From: Herbinix hemicellulosilytica | GTDB lineage: Bacteria; Bacillota; Clostridia; Lachnospirales; Lachnospiraceae | Direction of reading: 5' to 3' | Length of the DNA stretch: 64,000 nucleotides | Assembly (NCBI RefSeq): GCF_002904165.1 | Contig: NZ_CVTD020000023.1 | Location: forward strand, 1-64,000 | In this document: piece after piece, positions 21,184 to 27,592 of the stretch | Layout of the letters: every line of letters begins with the position of its first letter | How positions within the stretch are numbered: position 1 is the stretch's first letter | Position numbers and translations under genes: made by a program | The notes under the pieces: generated by a model | Database searches by the model: none | Seen by the model: the letters and a program-made list of their open reading frames with translations, nothing else | What the model was told of the DNA's origin: nothing

Positions 21184-21597
21184 TTAAAGTTTAACCACCT
21201 TTATTAAATCACATTTGTCTTCGCTTAATTCCACGCTGAATATCAGTTTCCCGCCCAAATTGGTTTTCATCTTGCCTAAAAGTTCATCATTTTTATAAAT
21301 CTCATATTCTTTTTCGGCTTCCAGTTCCAATGTAATCTGAGCTGTTTCTTCTCCGGTTACCTGAAAACAAAGTTCATTCTCCTTATGCTCCAGATGAAAT
21401 ACCGCCGTTCCGGGTACGGATTCGTAGAGGAAACTGCCGTTTCTCTCCAATTTTGTTATTTTATTATAAGTCTTAACCTTATATAAGTCGCCGTTGTGTT
21501 CAAAGTCAGCCATTTTTGACTTTTGACTTAATTTATAGTTGCCGAAACTGAGGGTCCCATCATTTTCACTGCGTATTAATTCTTGAACAACAGCCAT
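21184..21597 (-). CDS. Small conserved-looking protein between clpC and radA
   Basis: This 137-residue cytoplasmic protein is of unknown function. No signal peptide or membrane helix is seen. The sequence is rich in alternating beta-strand patterns and ends KCDLIKVVKL, consistent with an all-beta fold. AGGAGG seven bases before the ATG at 21597 fixes the start 33 codons inside the longest frame. It is 119 bases downstream of clpC and one base upstream of radA, an arrangement that points to co-expression with stress and repair genes. The function cannot be inferred beyond this context. Confidence 0.72.
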   Translation of the reverse strand: MAVVQELIRSENDGTLSFGNYKLSQKSKMADFEHNGDLYKVKTYNKITKLERNGSFLYESVPGTAVFHLEHKENELCFQVTGEETAQITLELEAEKEYEIYKNDELLGKMKTNLGGKLIFSVELSEDKCDLIKVVKL

Positions 21598-21716
21598 TAT
21601 ATGACCTCCTAAATTATTAATAAGGAACTTTCCGACTATATTATAATTATAAAGTAAATGGAGTTCGATTTCTACAGTGTCTTGGTCCCGATGCATCCCG
21701 GTATCTCAGGATTTGC

Positions 21717-24158
21717 TTATATTGCCCTTAATACCACTTCATTATCGATTAATTCAATTTTAACCGTATCCCCTTCTTTGATTGTGCCTGCCAGTACGGC
21801 TTCAGCCAGTTTGTCTTCTACATTTGTCTGTATAGCCCTGCGCAAAGGTCTTGCACCGTATTTTTCGTCATAGCCCTTTTCTGCCAAATACTCCAAAGCC
21901 TCCGGAGTAGCTTCCAGTGTTATATTCATCTGGGCTTTGCTTCTTTTTGCAATGTTTTTAACCATTATGCCGACAATTTCCTTTATATTGTCTTTGGTCA
22001 GGGAATGGAATACGATAATTTCATCGATACGGTTAATGAACTCCGGTCTGAAAATTCTCTTTACCTCATCCATTACGGCTTCCTTCATCTTCTTATAGTC
22101 TTCTTCTTCATCCACTTTGGAAGTAAAGCCTAACCTCTTGGGTGAGATAATATTTTGCGCTCCCGCATTGGAGGTCATTATGATAATGGTATTTTTGAAA
22201 CTTACTCTTCTTCCCTGGGCATCGGTTATATGGCCGTCATCCAATACCTGCAGCAGTATGTTAAACACGTCGGGATGGGCCTTTTCAACCTCATCGAAAA
22301 GAATAACAGAATAAGGATTTTGTCTTACTTTTTCGCTAAGTTGTCCTCCTTCGTCATATCCCACATATCCCGGAGGGGAACCGATAAGTTTGCTGACACT
22401 GTGTTTCTCCATATATTCGGACATATCTACCCGAATAATTGCATTTTCTGTACCGAACATTGCCTCTGCCAAAGCTTTTGACAATTCGGTTTTTCCGACA
22501 CCGGTCGGACCCAAGAAGAGGAATGAACCGATAGGCCTGTTGGGGTCTTTTAAGCCGACCCTGCCTCTTCTGATTGCTCTTGCCACGGCTGTGACCGCTT
22601 CATTCTGGCCGATTACCCTTTCATGCAGTATTTTTTCCAGATTCTGCAGTCTCTGAGCTTCTTCTTCAGCCAGTTTGGATACGGGAATCTTTGTCCAACT
22701 GGATACTATATCGGCAATTTCGGCTTCACTTACAACCAGTTGAGCTTCCGTCCTCTTCTTTTCTTCAATAAGCCTTTGCTTTTCCAACTGCTCCTGAAGA
22801 GCTTCCTGCTGCTTCTTGATTTCGCCGGCTCTTTCATAAGCCTCCTCTTTAATGGCCTTCTCTTTCTCCTGTTCAAGTCTTGCTATTTCTTTTTCCATGT
22901 TCTTTATTTCAGGAGACGAAGTATAGCAGCTTAATCTCACTTTAGATGCCGCTTCGTCCATTAAATCGATGGCTTTGTCGGGAAGATAACGGTCATTGAT
23001 ATAACGGGCTGACAGCTTTACAGCCGCAACAATAGCCGAATCCGTTATCCTTACTTTATGATGGGCCTCATATTTGTCCCTGAGTCCAAACAAAATCTGT
23101 ATGGCCTCTTCTTCTGAAGGTTCTTCTACAACCACAGGCTGGAATCTTCTTTCCAAAGCAGCATCTTTTTCGATATATTTACGATACTCTTCACGGGTTG
23201 TAGCACCAATGATTTGAAGTTCTCCTCTTGCAAGCGACGGCTTTAATATATTAGAAGCATCGATTGCCCCTTCGGCTCCGCCGGCACCTATTATCGTATG
23301 AAGCTCATCTATAAACAGAAGTACATTTCCGTCATTGATTACTTCACTGACAACCTTTTTGATTCTTTCTTCAAATTCTCCGCGATATTTTGAGCCTGCC
23401 ACCAAACCGGACAAATCCAGAGTAACTACTCTCTTATCTTTAATTGTGTCAGGCACATTTCCTTCTATTATCTTTAGGGCGAGTCCTTCCGCAATAGCGG
23501 TTTTTCCGACTCCGGGCTCACCTACCAGACACGGATTATTCTTGGTTCTTCTACTTAGTATCTGTATAACTCTTTGGATTTCGGTTTCTCTTCCGATGAC
23601 GGGATCAAGTTTGCCTTCCAGCGCATACTGGGTAAGGTCCCTGCTGTATTGATCCAGAGTAGGTGTAGATGACTTGCCCTTTTTATTTTTTCCGGGTGCA
23701 AAATCATTCTTTACGGAGCTTACATCTGCTCCCGCAGCTGCAAGCAAGTCTATATAAACCTTTTGTATATTAACTCCGAGAGTATTTAACAGGCGTACTG
23801 CGATACAATCCGTTTCTTTCATTAATGCAATCAATATATGCTCGGTTCCGGCCTGCGCCGCTTTTAATCTGGCAGCTTCGATTTGGCTTTGATCCAAAAT
23901 TCTCTTAGCCCTTGGGGTAAAACTGCCGCCTTCCATGGTGTCGACGCTGCTGCCGGGTGCTATAAGCTGATTTACCAATTCCATAACTTTGTCAACAGTT
24001 ACGCCGTTTTCTCTAAGTACTCTGGAGGCAACTCCGTCTACCTGCATCAGACCCATCAGGAGATGTTCCGTACCGATATAATTATGGTTAAGACGGAAAG
24101 CAATTTCTCTTGCAAAGTTTATTGCTTGGATTGCATTGTCTGTAAATCTGTTGTTCAT
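21717..24158 (-). CDS. clpC: ATP-dependent chaperone ClpC
   Basis: This 813-residue Hsp100 unfoldase feeds substrates to ClpP. It has two N-domain repeats (about 1-145), AAA-1 with GEPGVGKTA, a middle region with a UVR motif (about 410-460), AAA-2 with GPTGVGKTE, and the C-terminal D2-small domain. The conserved VGYDEGG and the ClpP-contact region near LGF mark it as a ClpC rather than ClpB. GGAGG eight bases before the ATG at 24158 decides the start; the longest frame opens inside that ribosome binding site. ClpC normally acts with McsB, which tags proteins with phosphoarginine, and both partner genes lie directly upstream. Confidence 0.96.
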   Translation of the reverse strand: MNNRFTDNAIQAINFAREIAFRLNHNYIGTEHLLMGLMQVDGVASRVLRENGVTVDKVMELVNQLIAPGSSVDTMEGGSFTPRAKRILDQSQIEAARLKAAQAGTEHILIALMKETDCIAVRLLNTLGVNIQKVYIDLLAAAGADVSSVKNDFAPGKNKKGKSSTPTLDQYSRDLTQYALEGKLDPVIGRETEIQRVIQILSRRTKNNPCLVGEPGVGKTAIAEGLALKIIEGNVPDTIKDKRVVTLDLSGLVAGSKYRGEFEERIKKVVSEVINDGNVLLFIDELHTIIGAGGAEGAIDASNILKPSLARGELQIIGATTREEYRKYIEKDAALERRFQPVVVEEPSEEEAIQILFGLRDKYEAHHKVRITDSAIVAAVKLSARYINDRYLPDKAIDLMDEAASKVRLSCYTSSPEIKNMEKEIARLEQEKEKAIKEEAYERAGEIKKQQEALQEQLEKQRLIEEKKRTEAQLVVSEAEIADIVSSWTKIPVSKLAEEEAQRLQNLEKILHERVIGQNEAVTAVARAIRRGRVGLKDPNRPIGSFLFLGPTGVGKTELSKALAEAMFGTENAIIRVDMSEYMEKHSVSKLIGSPPGYVGYDEGGQLSEKVRQNPYSVILFDEVEKAHPDVFNILLQVLDDGHITDAQGRRVSFKNTIIIMTSNAGAQNIISPKRLGFTSKVDEEEDYKKMKEAVMDEVKRIFRPEFINRIDEIIVFHSLTKDNIKEIVGIMVKNIAKRSKAQMNITLEATPEALEYLAEKGYDEKYGARPLRRAIQTNVEDKLAEAVLAGTIKEGDTVKIELIDNEVVLRAI

Positions 24159-24201
24159 CTTTCTGTCCTCCATTCTTTTTACGAGTACCGGATTTTACTC
24201 T

Positions 24202-25236
24202 TTATATTAAATCGGGTAACTCCTTGCTGATATATTCAGCTCTGGCTTTATCCCTTATGGCACTTCCTACACTTTTGCCCAAAGTCCACTGAAGACTTCC
24301 GGGTTGAACACCCATCATCATCTTATGGATATTAAATTCCCTGTTAAATTTTATTAAGCCGCAATCAGCTCCAAACTTCAGTTGTGACAAATACATCATG
24401 GCATCTTCGGAAGTAATTTGTTTTGCATATTTTAAAATACCGTAAGCACGGTAAACCTGGTCTTCTATTTCATCGGAATTTAATGACAGCATATATTCTC
24501 GTCTTTTTCTTTCCTGCTGCATAACCTGATAAACTATACGCTTCAGATTCTCTATTATTTCCTGTTCCGAATTGCCTAATGTTTTTTGGTTGGATATCTG
24601 ATAAATATTCCCCAAACTTCTTGTTCCTTCACCGTATATCCCTCTGATTGTTACATCGTATCTGCCGACCTCTTCAAACAGCTTCTGAATCATTCTGGCA
24701 GCACTCAAAGCAGGAAGAAAAACCATACATGATGCTCTCATCCCCGTACCGGTATTGGTAGGACACGAAGTCATATAGCCGTATTTTTCATCGTAAGCAA
24801 ATTTCAATTTTTCATATGCAATATCATCTATACGGTTTGCAATTTCATATGCCTTTTCAAGATTCATTCCGCCTACGATGGCCTGAATTCTGATATGGTC
24901 TTCTTCGTTGATCATTATGCTGACAGTTTCATCTTCAGATAATATTAAGCCTGTTGTCTGCTCTTTTTCCGCAAGCAAAGGGCTTAATATATGTCTTTCA
25001 ACCATAGCCGTTTTATCAATATCACTAAGGGACTGTATATTGCAGGCATAGTATTTTCTGTTATCCTGCTCGGAAAGAATAGGTGTGATGCTTTTTACTT
25101 CCTCGACCAGTTTTTTAGCATCCTGTTCTTCAAGCAAGGGGGAAAATTTATAATTTTCCAAATTTCTTGCCAGCCTTACCCGGCTGGATATAACCACATC
25201 GCCGTCCGGTACGGTTTCTTCATACCATTTAAGCAT
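24202..25236 (-). CDS. mcsB: Protein arginine kinase McsB
   Basis: This 344-residue enzyme of the ATP:guanido phosphotransferase family phosphorylates arginines of aberrant proteins, marking them for ClpCP. Arg-rich nucleotide-binding elements (SSRVRLARNL near the N-terminus) and the catalytic-loop signature TSCPTNTGTGMRAS with its reactive Cys are intact. It overlaps the end of mcsA by 8 bases, with AGGGAGG inside mcsA, so the activator and kinase are translationally coupled. In Bacillus the kinase also inactivates the repressor CtsR. Here no CtsR is adjacent, so its regulatory substrate may differ. Confidence 0.95.
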   Translation of the reverse strand: MLKWYEETVPDGDVVISSRVRLARNLENYKFSPLLEEQDAKKLVEEVKSITPILSEQDNRKYYACNIQSLSDIDKTAMVERHILSPLLAEKEQTTGLILSEDETVSIMINEEDHIRIQAIVGGMNLEKAYEIANRIDDIAYEKLKFAYDEKYGYMTSCPTNTGTGMRASCMVFLPALSAARMIQKLFEEVGRYDVTIRGIYGEGTRSLGNIYQISNQKTLGNSEQEIIENLKRIVYQVMQQERKRREYMLSLNSDEIEDQVYRAYGILKYAKQITSEDAMMYLSQLKFGADCGLIKFNREFNIHKMMMGVQPGSLQWTLGKSVGSAIRDKARAEYISKELPDLI

Positions 25237-25774
25237 TATTGGCTTCCTCCCTTTTTAACTGCCTGATTAAATCCCTGAGTCTTGCCGCTTCTTCAAATTC
25301 TTCCTTTTCTATAGCTTCCTGAAGTTCCAAAGCAAGTCTTTCGGCTTCCGATAATCCCTGCACCATCCTGTCTGTAGAGGTTAAAAATCCCTTAGGCCGT
25401 TTTCCGGTGTGGACTTCCGCTCCCTGTATGCCTCTTAAGGTTTTACCAAGTTCCTTATGGAAGCTTCGGTAACATTCCGCACATCCGAATCGTCCTCTTT
25501 GCAGAAACTCCTCATAAGTAGTATGACAATTACTGCATACAATATCCTGTCTTCCTTCACCGGATTTCTTGGTGGTATTGGGAGTATATGCTCCAAGCAA
25601 GGTCGACAGCAGGTTGTTTAGTGTAATATCGGTATTAAAAAAAGGTTTATCCATTTGAAAGGATGTATAGTCTGCAGCACATTCCTCACATAAATGCTGT
25701 TCATTTTTTATGCCGTTTATTATTTCCGTATACAGAACTTTTGCGGTCCTTTTATGACACCTGTCACACAACAT
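25229..25774 (-). CDS. mcsA: McsB activator McsA (zinc-finger/UVR protein)
   Basis: The 181-residue McsA activates McsB. Two zinc-binding blocks are seen, CDRCHKR...CEEC near residues 3-32 and CSNCHTTYEEF...CAECYRSF near 80-105, and a C-terminal UVR motif (LQEAIEKEEFEEAARLRD) links it to ClpC partners. GGAGG lies upstream of its ATG, five bases after the stop of the GntR-family gene. Length and motifs match the family. Confidence 0.94.
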   Translation of the reverse strand: MLCDRCHKRTAKVLYTEIINGIKNEQHLCEECAADYTSFQMDKPFFNTDITLNNLLSTLLGAYTPNTTKKSGEGRQDIVCSNCHTTYEEFLQRGRFGCAECYRSFHKELGKTLRGIQGAEVHTGKRPKGFLTSTDRMVQGLSEAERLALELQEAIEKEEFEEAARLRDLIRQLKREEANNA

Positions 25775-25779
25775 AGGAG

Positions 25780-26154
25780 TTACCTCCTTTCAAATTCTTT
25801 AAAAATTTCATCGACTACTTCATATACTTCCTGACAGCTTAAATTTTTGCATATGGCTTTGGCAATACTTACTCTAAGTTCCTCTTTCAGGTTTTCTCTT
25901 GCTTTCATCTTGTTGATATCAATAGCAATTACCGCCCCTTTTCTACGATCAAGCTTTATATATCCCTCTTGCCTAAGTATAGAGTATGCTTTATTGACCG
26001 TATGCATATTAATTCCTATATACTCAGCCAGTTCTCTGACTGAAGGAAGATTATCTCCTTCCTGGAATTGAGAGGTTGCAATGCCATATATGATCTGATT
26101 TATTAACTGAATATAAAGAGCTTCATCACTATTGAAATCAATCTTCATGTGCAT
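25780..26154 (-). CDS. GntR-family (YtrA-type) repressor heading the clp operon
   Basis: A 124-residue short GntR regulator. The N-terminal winged helix (about 5-75) contains LPSVRELAEYIGINMHTVNK and ends in YIKLDRRKGAVIAI. The ~45-residue C-terminal helical tail is the small dimerisation domain of the YtrA subfamily, which has no ligand-binding domain. GAGGTG lies six bases before the ATG at 26154. It sits 5 bases ahead of mcsA, where Bacillus and many Firmicutes have ctsR. A perfect 27-bp palindrome overlaps the promoter, so autoregulation and control of the whole clp operon are likely. It is not a CtsR homologue by sequence. Confidence 0.9.
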   Translation of the reverse strand: MHMKIDFNSDEALYIQLINQIIYGIATSQFQEGDNLPSVRELAEYIGINMHTVNKAYSILRQEGYIKLDRRKGAVIAIDINKMKARENLKEELRVSIAKAICKNLSCQEVYEVVDEIFKEFERR

Positions 26155-26221
26155 TGTATACACCTCTTATATAAATATTTTATGTAGTTACGTTTCCAAG
26201 AAACACAATCATTATAGTTAT

Positions 26222-26248
26222 ATCTGTTATATATATAATATAACAGAT
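26222..26248. promoter_or_regulatory. Perfect palindromic operator, probably for the GntR repressor
   Basis: Eleven-base arms ATCTGTTATAT (26222-26232) and ATATAACAGAT (26238-26248) are exactly complementary around a 5-base centre. The -10 box of the promoter lies within it, so binding would block RNA polymerase. No CtsR heptad repeat (GGTCAAA) is seen nearby. Confidence 0.75.
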
Positions 26249-26263
26249 TGCTTGTTTTGTCAA
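26235..26263 (-). promoter_or_regulatory. Sigma-A promoter of gntR-mcsA-mcsB-clpC
   Basis: On the minus strand TTGACA (26258-26263), 17 bases, TATTAT (26235-26240), about 80 bases before the start codon. It lies directly after the stop of the upstream gene. Confidence 0.82.
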
Positions 26264-26265
26264 CA

Positions 26266-27498
26266 TTATTTCCGTTTTTTATCTTTTGACCTTCTAGCTT
26301 TTGTGTACAGGCGAACAGACAAAATCATAAGCAGCACGCAAAGTGTACTAAGAATAGCTATAATTATAGCAGCTTTATTCAAATTGGAACGATATTTTTC
26401 TAAAGTTGAGTTATCCTCAACAAAATCATTTTCAGGCATTTGAACTGTTACCTGTTCGTCCACATAGCGCTGTAATGTCCTTTCCACTTTATCATAGCGG
26501 TAAAACTTCGCTTCACCCAGTTCATTTTCCGCGTAAATTAATAGAAAATCACTGTCTAGCTGTTTCGGTGCATACACTTCTATGGAAATACCGGATATGA
26601 TAGTCCTGGTCTTTGTATATCCTTCCGGTATCTTGACATTTTCACCGGGCTCTACCAGTTTATATTTTCCCCCATATACGGCAAAAATCTCGTTGTCTAT
26701 ACGGACCAGCTCAAATTTTCCGTGTTTTTCATCAGGTGTAATCGGCTCTATATTGATTTCGTCTTCCGGAGCGCTCTCTTTGGTGACTTGTATTTCATAT
26801 TCTTTTTTATTTCCGGCTTCGGCTGTAACGGTAACGGTAACTTTATTATCTCCTTCGTTTAAGGATTCATTACCGGATATACGGATTGTGGCATTTTCAT
26901 CTTCCGGAAGTGCCGATACAATCAGTTTATTTGTATCATGTCCTACATTGGTACTATACTTGTATATATTTTTATCAAAAGGCGGATTCAGTTCACCCGG
27001 ACTTATTTTTATTGAAGCCAGGTATGCATTATCCGAAGCGGTTTGTGCCGGTTTAACTTCAAGCTCGTATGAATTGCTCGATATGGACATGGGCATGCCG
27101 GATTCAAATTCATATACCATAACCGAACCGGTAAAATCTATTTCACATCTGCCCACTTTAAGGGCCTTAAATTCAAGGACATACTTCCTGTTATCGTCTT
27201 CTTCAGAAATATTAATATCCGATATCCTTAAGAATCCGCTGCCCCCGGTTATAAATGAAACACCGCTTTTATATTCCAGTATATCTGCATCATAAATTAA
27301 ATATGCTTCAACATCACCAAACATGGTGTCGGAACTGATATTTATATACACATATACGGTATCACCGACCGTTACAGGGTTTTTGTCGGCAGATATCTCT
27401 ATATTGGCACTGGCTGCTTTTGCCGTATTCATATTTAAAAAACCGGCAAATATAAAAAGCAGACAGAAAATTATTACTTTTAATTTTACTCTATTCAT
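26266..27498 (-). CDS. Surface protein with cohesin-like and cadherin-like domains, membrane anchored
   Basis: A 410-residue exported protein. A signal peptide ends near NTAKAAS (about 28). Next comes a domain of about 130 residues resembling cohesins (NPVTVGDTVYVYINISSD, then YDADILEYKSG), then a cadherin-like beta-sandwich (about 155-245; FDKNIYKYST...NEGDNKVTVTVTAE), an unrecognised linker domain, and a C-terminal helix (about 372-395) followed by a Lys/Arg-rich tail. This implies display on the outer face of the membrane. The ATG at 27498 with a G-rich ribosome binding site is chosen 14 codons into the longest frame. A dockerin-binding role would be inference only. Confidence 0.75.
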   Translation of the reverse strand: MNRVKLKVIIFCLLFIFAGFLNMNTAKAASANIEISADKNPVTVGDTVYVYINISSDTMFGDVEAYLIYDADILEYKSGVSFITGGSGFLRISDINISEEDDNRKYVLEFKALKVGRCEIDFTGSVMVYEFESGMPMSISSNSYELEVKPAQTASDNAYLASIKISPGELNPPFDKNIYKYSTNVGHDTNKLIVSALPEDENATIRISGNESLNEGDNKVTVTVTAEAGNKKEYEIQVTKESAPEDEINIEPITPDEKHGKFELVRIDNEIFAVYGGKYKLVEPGENVKIPEGYTKTRTIISGISIEVYAPKQLDSDFLLIYAENELGEAKFYRYDKVERTLQRYVDEQVTVQMPENDFVEDNSTLEKYRSNLNKAAIIIAILSTLCVLLMILSVRLYTKARRSKDKKRK

Positions 27499-27592
27499 TA
27501 CTTTTCCCCCTTTTAGATAATAATAACACATCGAATGCAAGAAGCAATAATTTTATTATTTTTTTAATCTATCCTTAATATTTAAAATAGCC

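Follow-up and report, generated by a model that had tools for sequence, protein, structure and literature searches.

We propose that a dimeric YtrA-type repressor of the GntR family has taken over the role of CtsR in Lachnospiraceae, together with a CtsR-like regulon, and we put the probability of this reading at roughly 85%. CtsR, whose operator consists of GGTCAAA heptads, is encoded at the head of the ctsR-mcsA-mcsB-clpC operon in Bacillus and in many other Firmicutes. Non-homologous replacement of CtsR appears to be the best reading of a sequence comparison that covers the gene, its operator and regulon, their co-occurrence, the absence of CtsR and the occurrence of the repressor without McsB. 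In contrast, that the protein forms a dimer, binds and represses, that heat is the signal and how release occurs are inferences, as no binding, expression or heat data are available.

Results

The gntR Gene Heads the mcsA-mcsB-clpC Operon

The window analysed here comprises 64,000 nucleotides of Herbinix hemicellulosilytica (contig NZ_CVTD020000023.1, positions 1 to 64,000). Its minus strand carries, in this order, gntR, mcsA, mcsB, clpC, a gene encoding a 170-aa protein and radA (Table 1). From the listed GTG start the gntR reading frame spans 127 aa, and 124 aa from the internal ATG; 5 bases separate its end (25780) from the start of mcsA (25774), which confirms the gene size and spacing given in an earlier, sequence-only reading of this DNA.

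Table 1. Positions of the operon genes and of the predicted control elements in the window.
Feature	Position	Strand	Basis
gntR, YtrA-type GntR repressor, 124 aa from ATG at 26154	25780-26154	minus	PF00392; orthologues adjoin mcsA or clpC
Predicted operator TGTTATA-N7-TATAACA (no binding data)	26225-26245		Inside the inverted repeat 26222-26248
Half-site-like extension GATATAA, gene side of the operator	26218-26224	minus	Part of the 28-base pattern
-10 box TATTAT, inside the operator	26235-26240	minus	Sequence; similar layout in relatives
-35 box TTGACA, 17-base spacer to the -10 box	26258-26263	minus	Sequence; alignment of relatives
mcsA	25229-25774	minus	NF053706, E = 2.2e-41, 141.6 bits, under the model cut-off of 210; position before mcsB
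mcsB, protein-arginine kinase	24202-25236	minus	PF00217, E = 4e-66; NF002194 above cut-off
clpC	21717-24173	minus	Clp_N, AAA, AAA_2, ClpB_D2-small; weak UVR match at 427-462, under cut-off

The 170-aa protein encoded between clpC and radA (21184-21696, minus strand) has no match in Pfam or NCBIfam, but many family loci long enough to include this position contain matches of 51-85% identity. Upstream of gntR, a gene for a cadherin-like-domain protein (26266-27540, minus strand) is present in 28 of 30 genus loci; the contigs of the other two stop before its place.

All 33 other genomes of the genus that were searched contain gntR, at 66-83% identity. At E ≤ 1e-25, the GntR profile matched 204 of 299 family genomes and found no match in the remaining 95; a few of the weakest of the 204 matches may be paralogues. 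The best 80 of 569 GntR records are mostly labelled as Lachnospiraceae, Clostridiales or genera of Lachnospiraceae. The records include Anaerocolumna, Blautia, Hungatella, Claveliimonas, Diplocloster and Eubacterium ramulus, as well as two metagenome-assembled genomes labelled Bacillus and Gastranaerophilales.

In the 30 fetched genus loci, including that of the window, mcsA always follows gntR directly. Among the 110 best-scoring loci, clpC lies directly behind gntR in 84 and mcsA in 25, and mcsA is 339 bases away in one; wherever an mcsA-type locus reaches far enough, mcsB and clpC come after mcsA. The 20 lowest family matches listed comprise 11 loci with clpC directly behind gntR and nine with mcsA-mcsB-clpC. 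Taken together, all 130 loci examined have gntR ahead of clpC or mcsA; this set includes the 30 best matches of the family profile and the 20 lowest among those listed. A loss of synteny in relatives, which the sequence-only reading had set as a refuting test, was not seen.

CtsR Is Absent from the Genome and from Sampled Genomes of the Order

The CtsR family (PF05848) has no match in the genome of H. hemicellulosilytica and none in 246 sampled genomes of the order. As the same search matches 205 of 291 genomes of the class, this absence does not reflect a failure of the search. Among 14 named control genomes only Lactococcus lactis yielded a match, and the class search serves as the effective control. 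The possibility that CtsR is encoded elsewhere in the genome, which had been named as a refutation of the replacement, is therefore rejected. Twenty stretches ahead of clpC or mcsA, taken from 19 genomes within the order, were likewise inspected by eye and showed no CtsR-like frame, leaving aside four stretches without an mcsA or clpC match.

The window was also searched for known control elements, including CIRCE, the operator of the chaperone-gene repressor HrcA. GGTCAAA heptads with up to three mismatches gave four matches against 7.1 expected, none of them at the gntR-mcsA operon, and CIRCE (≤3 mismatches) was not found. We consequently rejected CtsR boxes and CIRCE as control elements of the gntR operon. 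The earlier statement that this region holds neither a ctsR gene nor a GGTCAAA heptad is borne out, the heptad-like matches not exceeding chance, and the inference that a repressor of a different class stands in the place of CtsR at mcsA-mcsB-clpC is supported by the absence of CtsR and the conserved synteny.

In genome G039, which belongs to another family of the order, a PadR-family gene (PF03551; L269:1669-2067) is located directly ahead of mcsA-mcsB-clpC. This gene may represent a second, independent replacement of CtsR.

The Protein Is a Short GntR Regulator of the YtrA Type

The protein matches PF00392 (E = 1.1e-11; 44.6 bits, cut-off 27), indicating the presence of a GntR winged-helix DNA-binding domain, and PF05848, the DNA-binding domain of CtsR, is not among the Pfam families that it matches. 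The AlphaFold model (mean pLDDT 90.4, pTM 0.66) comprises a winged helix-turn-helix and two C-terminal helices (residues 79-101 and 106-121). This short C-terminal part of about 50 aa without a ligand domain meets the YtrA criterion. The best PDB matches of the model are 6SBS, 4HAM and 3BY6, and 6SBS, the YtrA protein of Sulfolobus acidocaldarius, ranks first both by sequence and by fold. Model, PDB matches and PF00392 thus uphold the YtrA-type assignment proposed earlier. An ABC transporter in the operon, which is a usual though not universal YtrA trait, is absent; mcsA(-mcsB-clpC) or clpC comes next.

Across 107 distinct GntR sequences, including that of the window, the stretch NMHTVNKAY is identical, and Arg40, Asn49, Arg71 and Cys102 (ATG numbering) are invariant. 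The invariance of this helix is partly built in, since part of it was used to find 80 of the loci, i.e., the best 80 of 569, which were retrieved with the peptide NMHTVNK or an LPSVR-type pattern.

A Conserved Operator Overlaps the gntR Promoter

The inverted repeat at 26222-26248 consists of two perfect 11-bp arms, ATCTGTTATAT and ATATAACAGAT, flanking a 5-base centre that is asymmetric and not self-complementary. The sequence-only reading had described it as a perfect 27-bp palindrome over the -10 box of a TTGACA-17-TATTAT promoter; the promoter and the overlap hold, whereas the perfect palindrome has to be replaced by the two 11-bp arms. The predicted operator TGTTATA-N7-TATAACA contains GT-N15-AC and meets the YtrA operator criterion, as the main text of PMC4494728 describes long palindromes for this subfamily in which GT and AC are remote from the centre. 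When up to one mismatch is allowed, the motif matches the window once against 0.03 expected, and the exact motif occurs a single time in the 3.04-Mb genome.

An alignment of relatives revealed conserved operator arms and a variable spacer. The 28-base form of the operator (0-1 mismatch) precedes gntR in 33 of 34 genomes of the genus, the exception being G008, whose contig stops 47 bases from gntR. At the family level, the variant set TGT(TA/GC/GA/TC)TA-N7-TA(T/G)AACA was found within 300 bases of gntR in 85 of 110 loci and only once in 931,082 other coding-strand bases, this hit being located 545 bases ahead of a gntR. Likewise, TGTKMTA-N7-TAKAACA (≤1 mismatch) is present ahead of gntR in 96 of 125 distinct upstream sequences (130 loci), compared with 0 of 507 random windows.

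As TGTTATAnT resembles TGn-TATAAT and a TTGACA-like -35 box lies about 17 bases upstream, the element could instead be a promoter motif of the extended -10 kind, perhaps one read by a particular sigma factor, and no operator at all. This explanation does not account for the right arm TA(T/G)AACA, which is positioned past the -10 box at a fixed offset and mirrors the left arm: counted on both strands, its offset from TGTTATA is 14 in 108 cases and 32 in six, with no other value between 7 and 39. Since the sites for this count were picked by the arm pattern, conservation of the arms is a given, and information comes from the spacing and the flanks alone. The left arm of the operator also serves as an extended -10, so that some of its conservation could stem from RNA polymerase.

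In 23 of 130 loci no operator (≤2 mismatches) was found within 300 bases of gntR. Read by eye, gntR follows close behind another gene in about 15 of these loci, and gntR-clpC is therefore probably not autoregulated there. Farther upstream in the operator-less loci (≤2 mismatches), an exact site was found only in L209 (-545), and a two-mismatch site about 4 kb off in L198. In eight loci without operator (L184, L188, L191, L201, L202, L218, L219 and L229) gntR-clpC is located close behind a gene with a DDDEFEFEFLNM-type tail.

The Recognition Helix and the Operator Occur Together

GntR paralogues with the recognition helix HTVNKAY adjoin the operator in four of four cases (exact for L077, L079 and L082, one mismatch for L083). 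Among paralogues with MTV(N/S)K(T/A)Y, the operator at up to one mismatch was found in none of three (L078, L080 and L081); L081 has a two-mismatch operator. Recognition helix and operator travel together in these GntR relatives.

Operator Sites Are Found at hsp20 and clpB

In the genome of H. hemicellulosilytica, four further sites match the operator with one mismatch, two of which lie over the promoters of hsp20 and clpB. The other two (L032 and L033), which have no recognisable quality-control promoter behind them, were dismissed as chance matches. Loci of the genus that were fetched by protein and not by site contain the operator (≤1 mismatch) at hsp20 in 22 of 24 cases, and in the two remaining loci it is located ahead of a tandem hsp20 gene. 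At clpB, the operator was observed in 20 of 20 genus loci and in genome G036. No operator (≤2 mismatches) was found in nine loci taken as clpB from other genera or families without a close GntR; one of the nine, L155, was rejected as clpB, being clpC.

These additional sites could be due to chance or to another factor, GntR regulating its own operon only. In favour of such strictly local autoregulation, most YtrA-type regulons are single operons, mostly encoding ABC transporters, according to the main text of PMC4494728, and sites with up to two mismatches are not enriched in the own genome (66 against 85 for the reversed pattern). However, across 21 genomes with GntR, the exact motif TGTTMTA-N7-TAKAACA occurs at 61 sites against five for the reversed pattern, and the same gene classes recur behind it: the sites precede gntR (17), hsp20 (20), clpB (15), dnaJ-like genes (2) and mecA (1), together 55 of 61, six being unassigned. 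The six sites without a quality-control gene (G013:C23, G030:C51, G011:C18, G011:C230, G005:C6 and G012:C24) are unexplained or chance matches. It has to be noted that 16 of the 21 genomes belong to this genus or are G036, their sites being partly known beforehand. Pfam searches covered the hsp20 and clpB genes of H. hemicellulosilytica, one other hsp20 gene, both dnaJ-like genes and the mecA gene; the remaining genes behind sites were named by protein match or frame reading. The mecA gene with an operator in front encodes a ClpC adaptor (PF05389; L348:2334-2945, genome G500).

Moreover, the clpB sites track the presence of the gntR gene. The operator (≤1 mismatch) precedes clpB in 15 of 15 genomes with GntR, 14 times exactly, as compared with one of 14 genomes without it (Fisher p = 2e-7). 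The comparison is based on 30 hand-chosen family genomes, 29 of which contain clpB, with those encoding GntR taken from the high-scoring end. The exception without GntR is G307, with one mismatch, and two further genomes without GntR have two-mismatch sites. In addition, the other GntR matches listed for the own genome are weak (3.6e-15 and 2.3e-11), and the one of them that was read, L084, has a different recognition helix. We therefore consider regulation restricted to the own operon very unlikely. The lack of the site (≤1 mismatch) at clpB in 13 of 14 genomes without GntR also speaks against a mere extended -10 motif, which we regard as hardly tenable.

For genomes without GntR, only four hsp20 loci were covered (L118, L122, L124 and L125), and the operator (≤2 mismatches) is absent from all four; the locus L119 was left out, as it has no upstream sequence. 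CIRCE (≤3 mismatches) was detected at clpB in 12 of 14 genomes without GntR and in six of 15 with GntR. By eye, a CIRCE-like element beside the GntR operator was seen at hsp20 or clpB promoters in L103, L110, L111, L115, L117 and L144, which suggests dual control by HrcA and GntR at some of these promoters.

The Repressor Gene Persists without McsB

CtsR is phosphorylated on arginine by McsB and degraded by ClpC. By analogy, McsB could act as the sensor arm here, phosphorylating arginines of GntR and thereby delivering the repressor to ClpC for degradation. In favour of this proposal, the wing arginines Arg70 (97%) and Arg71 (100%; ATG numbering) are conserved in the 107 distinct sequences, and in this genus mcsA and mcsB are co-operonic with gntR. 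However, McsB (PF00217) was found in none of the 20 sampled genomes in which clpC lies directly behind gntR, although gntR persists there, and the clpB operator is kept in the 15 of these McsB-less genomes that were tested. McsB was found in eight of eight genomes of the gntR-mcsA-mcsB type and in one of 14 without GntR. The survey covered 42 hand-chosen genomes, those with GntR again coming from the high-scoring end; four of the 20 McsB-less genomes are less than 90% complete, and none of 14 control genomes matched, so that the sensitivity of the search rests on the own McsB and nine matched genomes.

Because McsB is missing from all 20 sampled gntR-clpC genomes, McsB phosphorylation, considered earlier as a possible inducer, is ruled out as a general one; judged by gene content, phosphoarginine signalling is not what generally relieves repression. 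We thus deem it unlikely that McsB is the sensor arm, although it could still act in lineages that retain it. It seems that the phosphoarginine arm was lost in many lineages while the repressor was retained.

The invariant Cys102 raises the alternative that thiol or redox stress, more than heat, is sensed. The cysteine is found in 107 of 107 distinct sequences, the two residues preceding it being variable; however, this sample was chosen by similarity, and the targets are chaperones and Clp proteins without redox enzymes. Furthermore, a cysteine also occurs in this stretch of L077 and L082, two paralogues located away from clpC, and the residue is therefore not specific to the heat-shock form. 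Sensing through Cys102 remains conceivable, if rather unlikely. The preferred reading retains heat as the probable signal, since the targets are those typical of a heat-shock response.

Discussion

According to the proposed replacement of CtsR, a GntR dimer would, in unstressed cells, occupy TGTTATA-N7-TATAACA across the -10 box and block RNA polymerase at the promoters of its own operon, gntR-[mcsA-mcsB-]clpC, and of the unlinked clpB and hsp20 genes. Protein-folding stress would release GntR, so that the disaggregase and small-chaperone genes would be induced together, and negative autoregulation by GntR would reset the system and hold its own level. Since McsB can be absent, the inducer would act on the repressor directly or through ClpC; release would most likely stem from the repressor itself, through binding that depends on temperature, or follow from the activity of ClpC, with no requirement for McsB.

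A more far-reaching scenario is tentative, and we rate it somewhat short of even odds: Lachnospiraceae would have dropped CtsR and, in most sampled lineages, McsA and McsB, and a minimal GntR would serve as thermosensor or thiol sensor that runs clpC, clpB and hsp20 and, in places, dnaJ-like genes and mecA. Such a one-protein heat-shock switch would have been made from a YtrA protein, which still has its recognition helix and operator in common with relatives encoded next to genes for membrane proteins.

The Lachnospiraceae form a large family living in gut and soil and count among the most common bacteria of the human gut. If the replacement holds true, it is a clear case in which a core stress regulator has been exchanged for a protein that has no relation to it and has gained control of several unlinked operons, and the control of ClpC has been separated from phosphoarginine signalling, with an operator that can be tested. 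It would also raise the question whether heat can be sensed directly by a YtrA-type repressor that has no ligand domain.

Neither part of this system is of a new kind: YtrA-type repressors and clp regulons are both known. Judged by titles and the beginnings of abstracts, we found no paper linking a GntR protein to the control of clpC or mcsA, and none describing how Lachnospiraceae control Clp and small heat-shock genes. The main text of PMC4494728 does not contain 'clp', 'hsp' or 'chaperon'; an entry in its supplementary tables, which lie outside this scope, is possible.

With the YtrA subfamily and 6SBS, GntR has in common its size, the winged helix-turn-helix with two C-terminal helices and a long inverted repeat over the promoter with an extra half-site, flanking half-sites being described for the operator of a YtrA protein (PMC6746942). 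The known YtrA regulons differ, as most comprise a single operon encoding an ABC transporter or, in Sulfolobus, membrane-protein loci, whereas GntR has sites at several protein-quality-control operons. The GntR paralogues beside DUF1648-type membrane protein genes share the operator and the HTVNKAY helix with the clpC-linked GntR; unlike gntR, the paralogues, some beside DUF1648-type genes, do not neighbour clpC, and DUF1648 was confirmed by Pfam for L077 only. We infer that the heat-shock GntR may have arisen from this DUF1648-linked stock.

HrcA/CIRCE resembles the GntR system in acting on chaperone genes, and some hsp20 and clpB promoters combine a CIRCE-like element with the GntR operator; however, its palindrome differs, and clpB of genomes without GntR mostly has a CIRCE-like element without the GntR operator.

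In role, GntR resembles CtsR, whose gene position, promoter-overlapping operator and targets (the clpC operon, clpB and hsp20) match those of GntR. Regulation of several Clp and chaperone operons, a criterion for CtsR, is met for GntR by its sites only, without expression data. In contrast, the two proteins are unrelated, CtsR belonging to PF05848 and GntR to PF00392 without a PF05848 match; the CtsR operator consists of GGTCAAA heptads, as opposed to TGTTATA-N7-TATAACA, and GntR, compared with CtsR, occurs where McsB is missing. The protein is a YtrA-type GntR regulator that works like CtsR, and not a CtsR.
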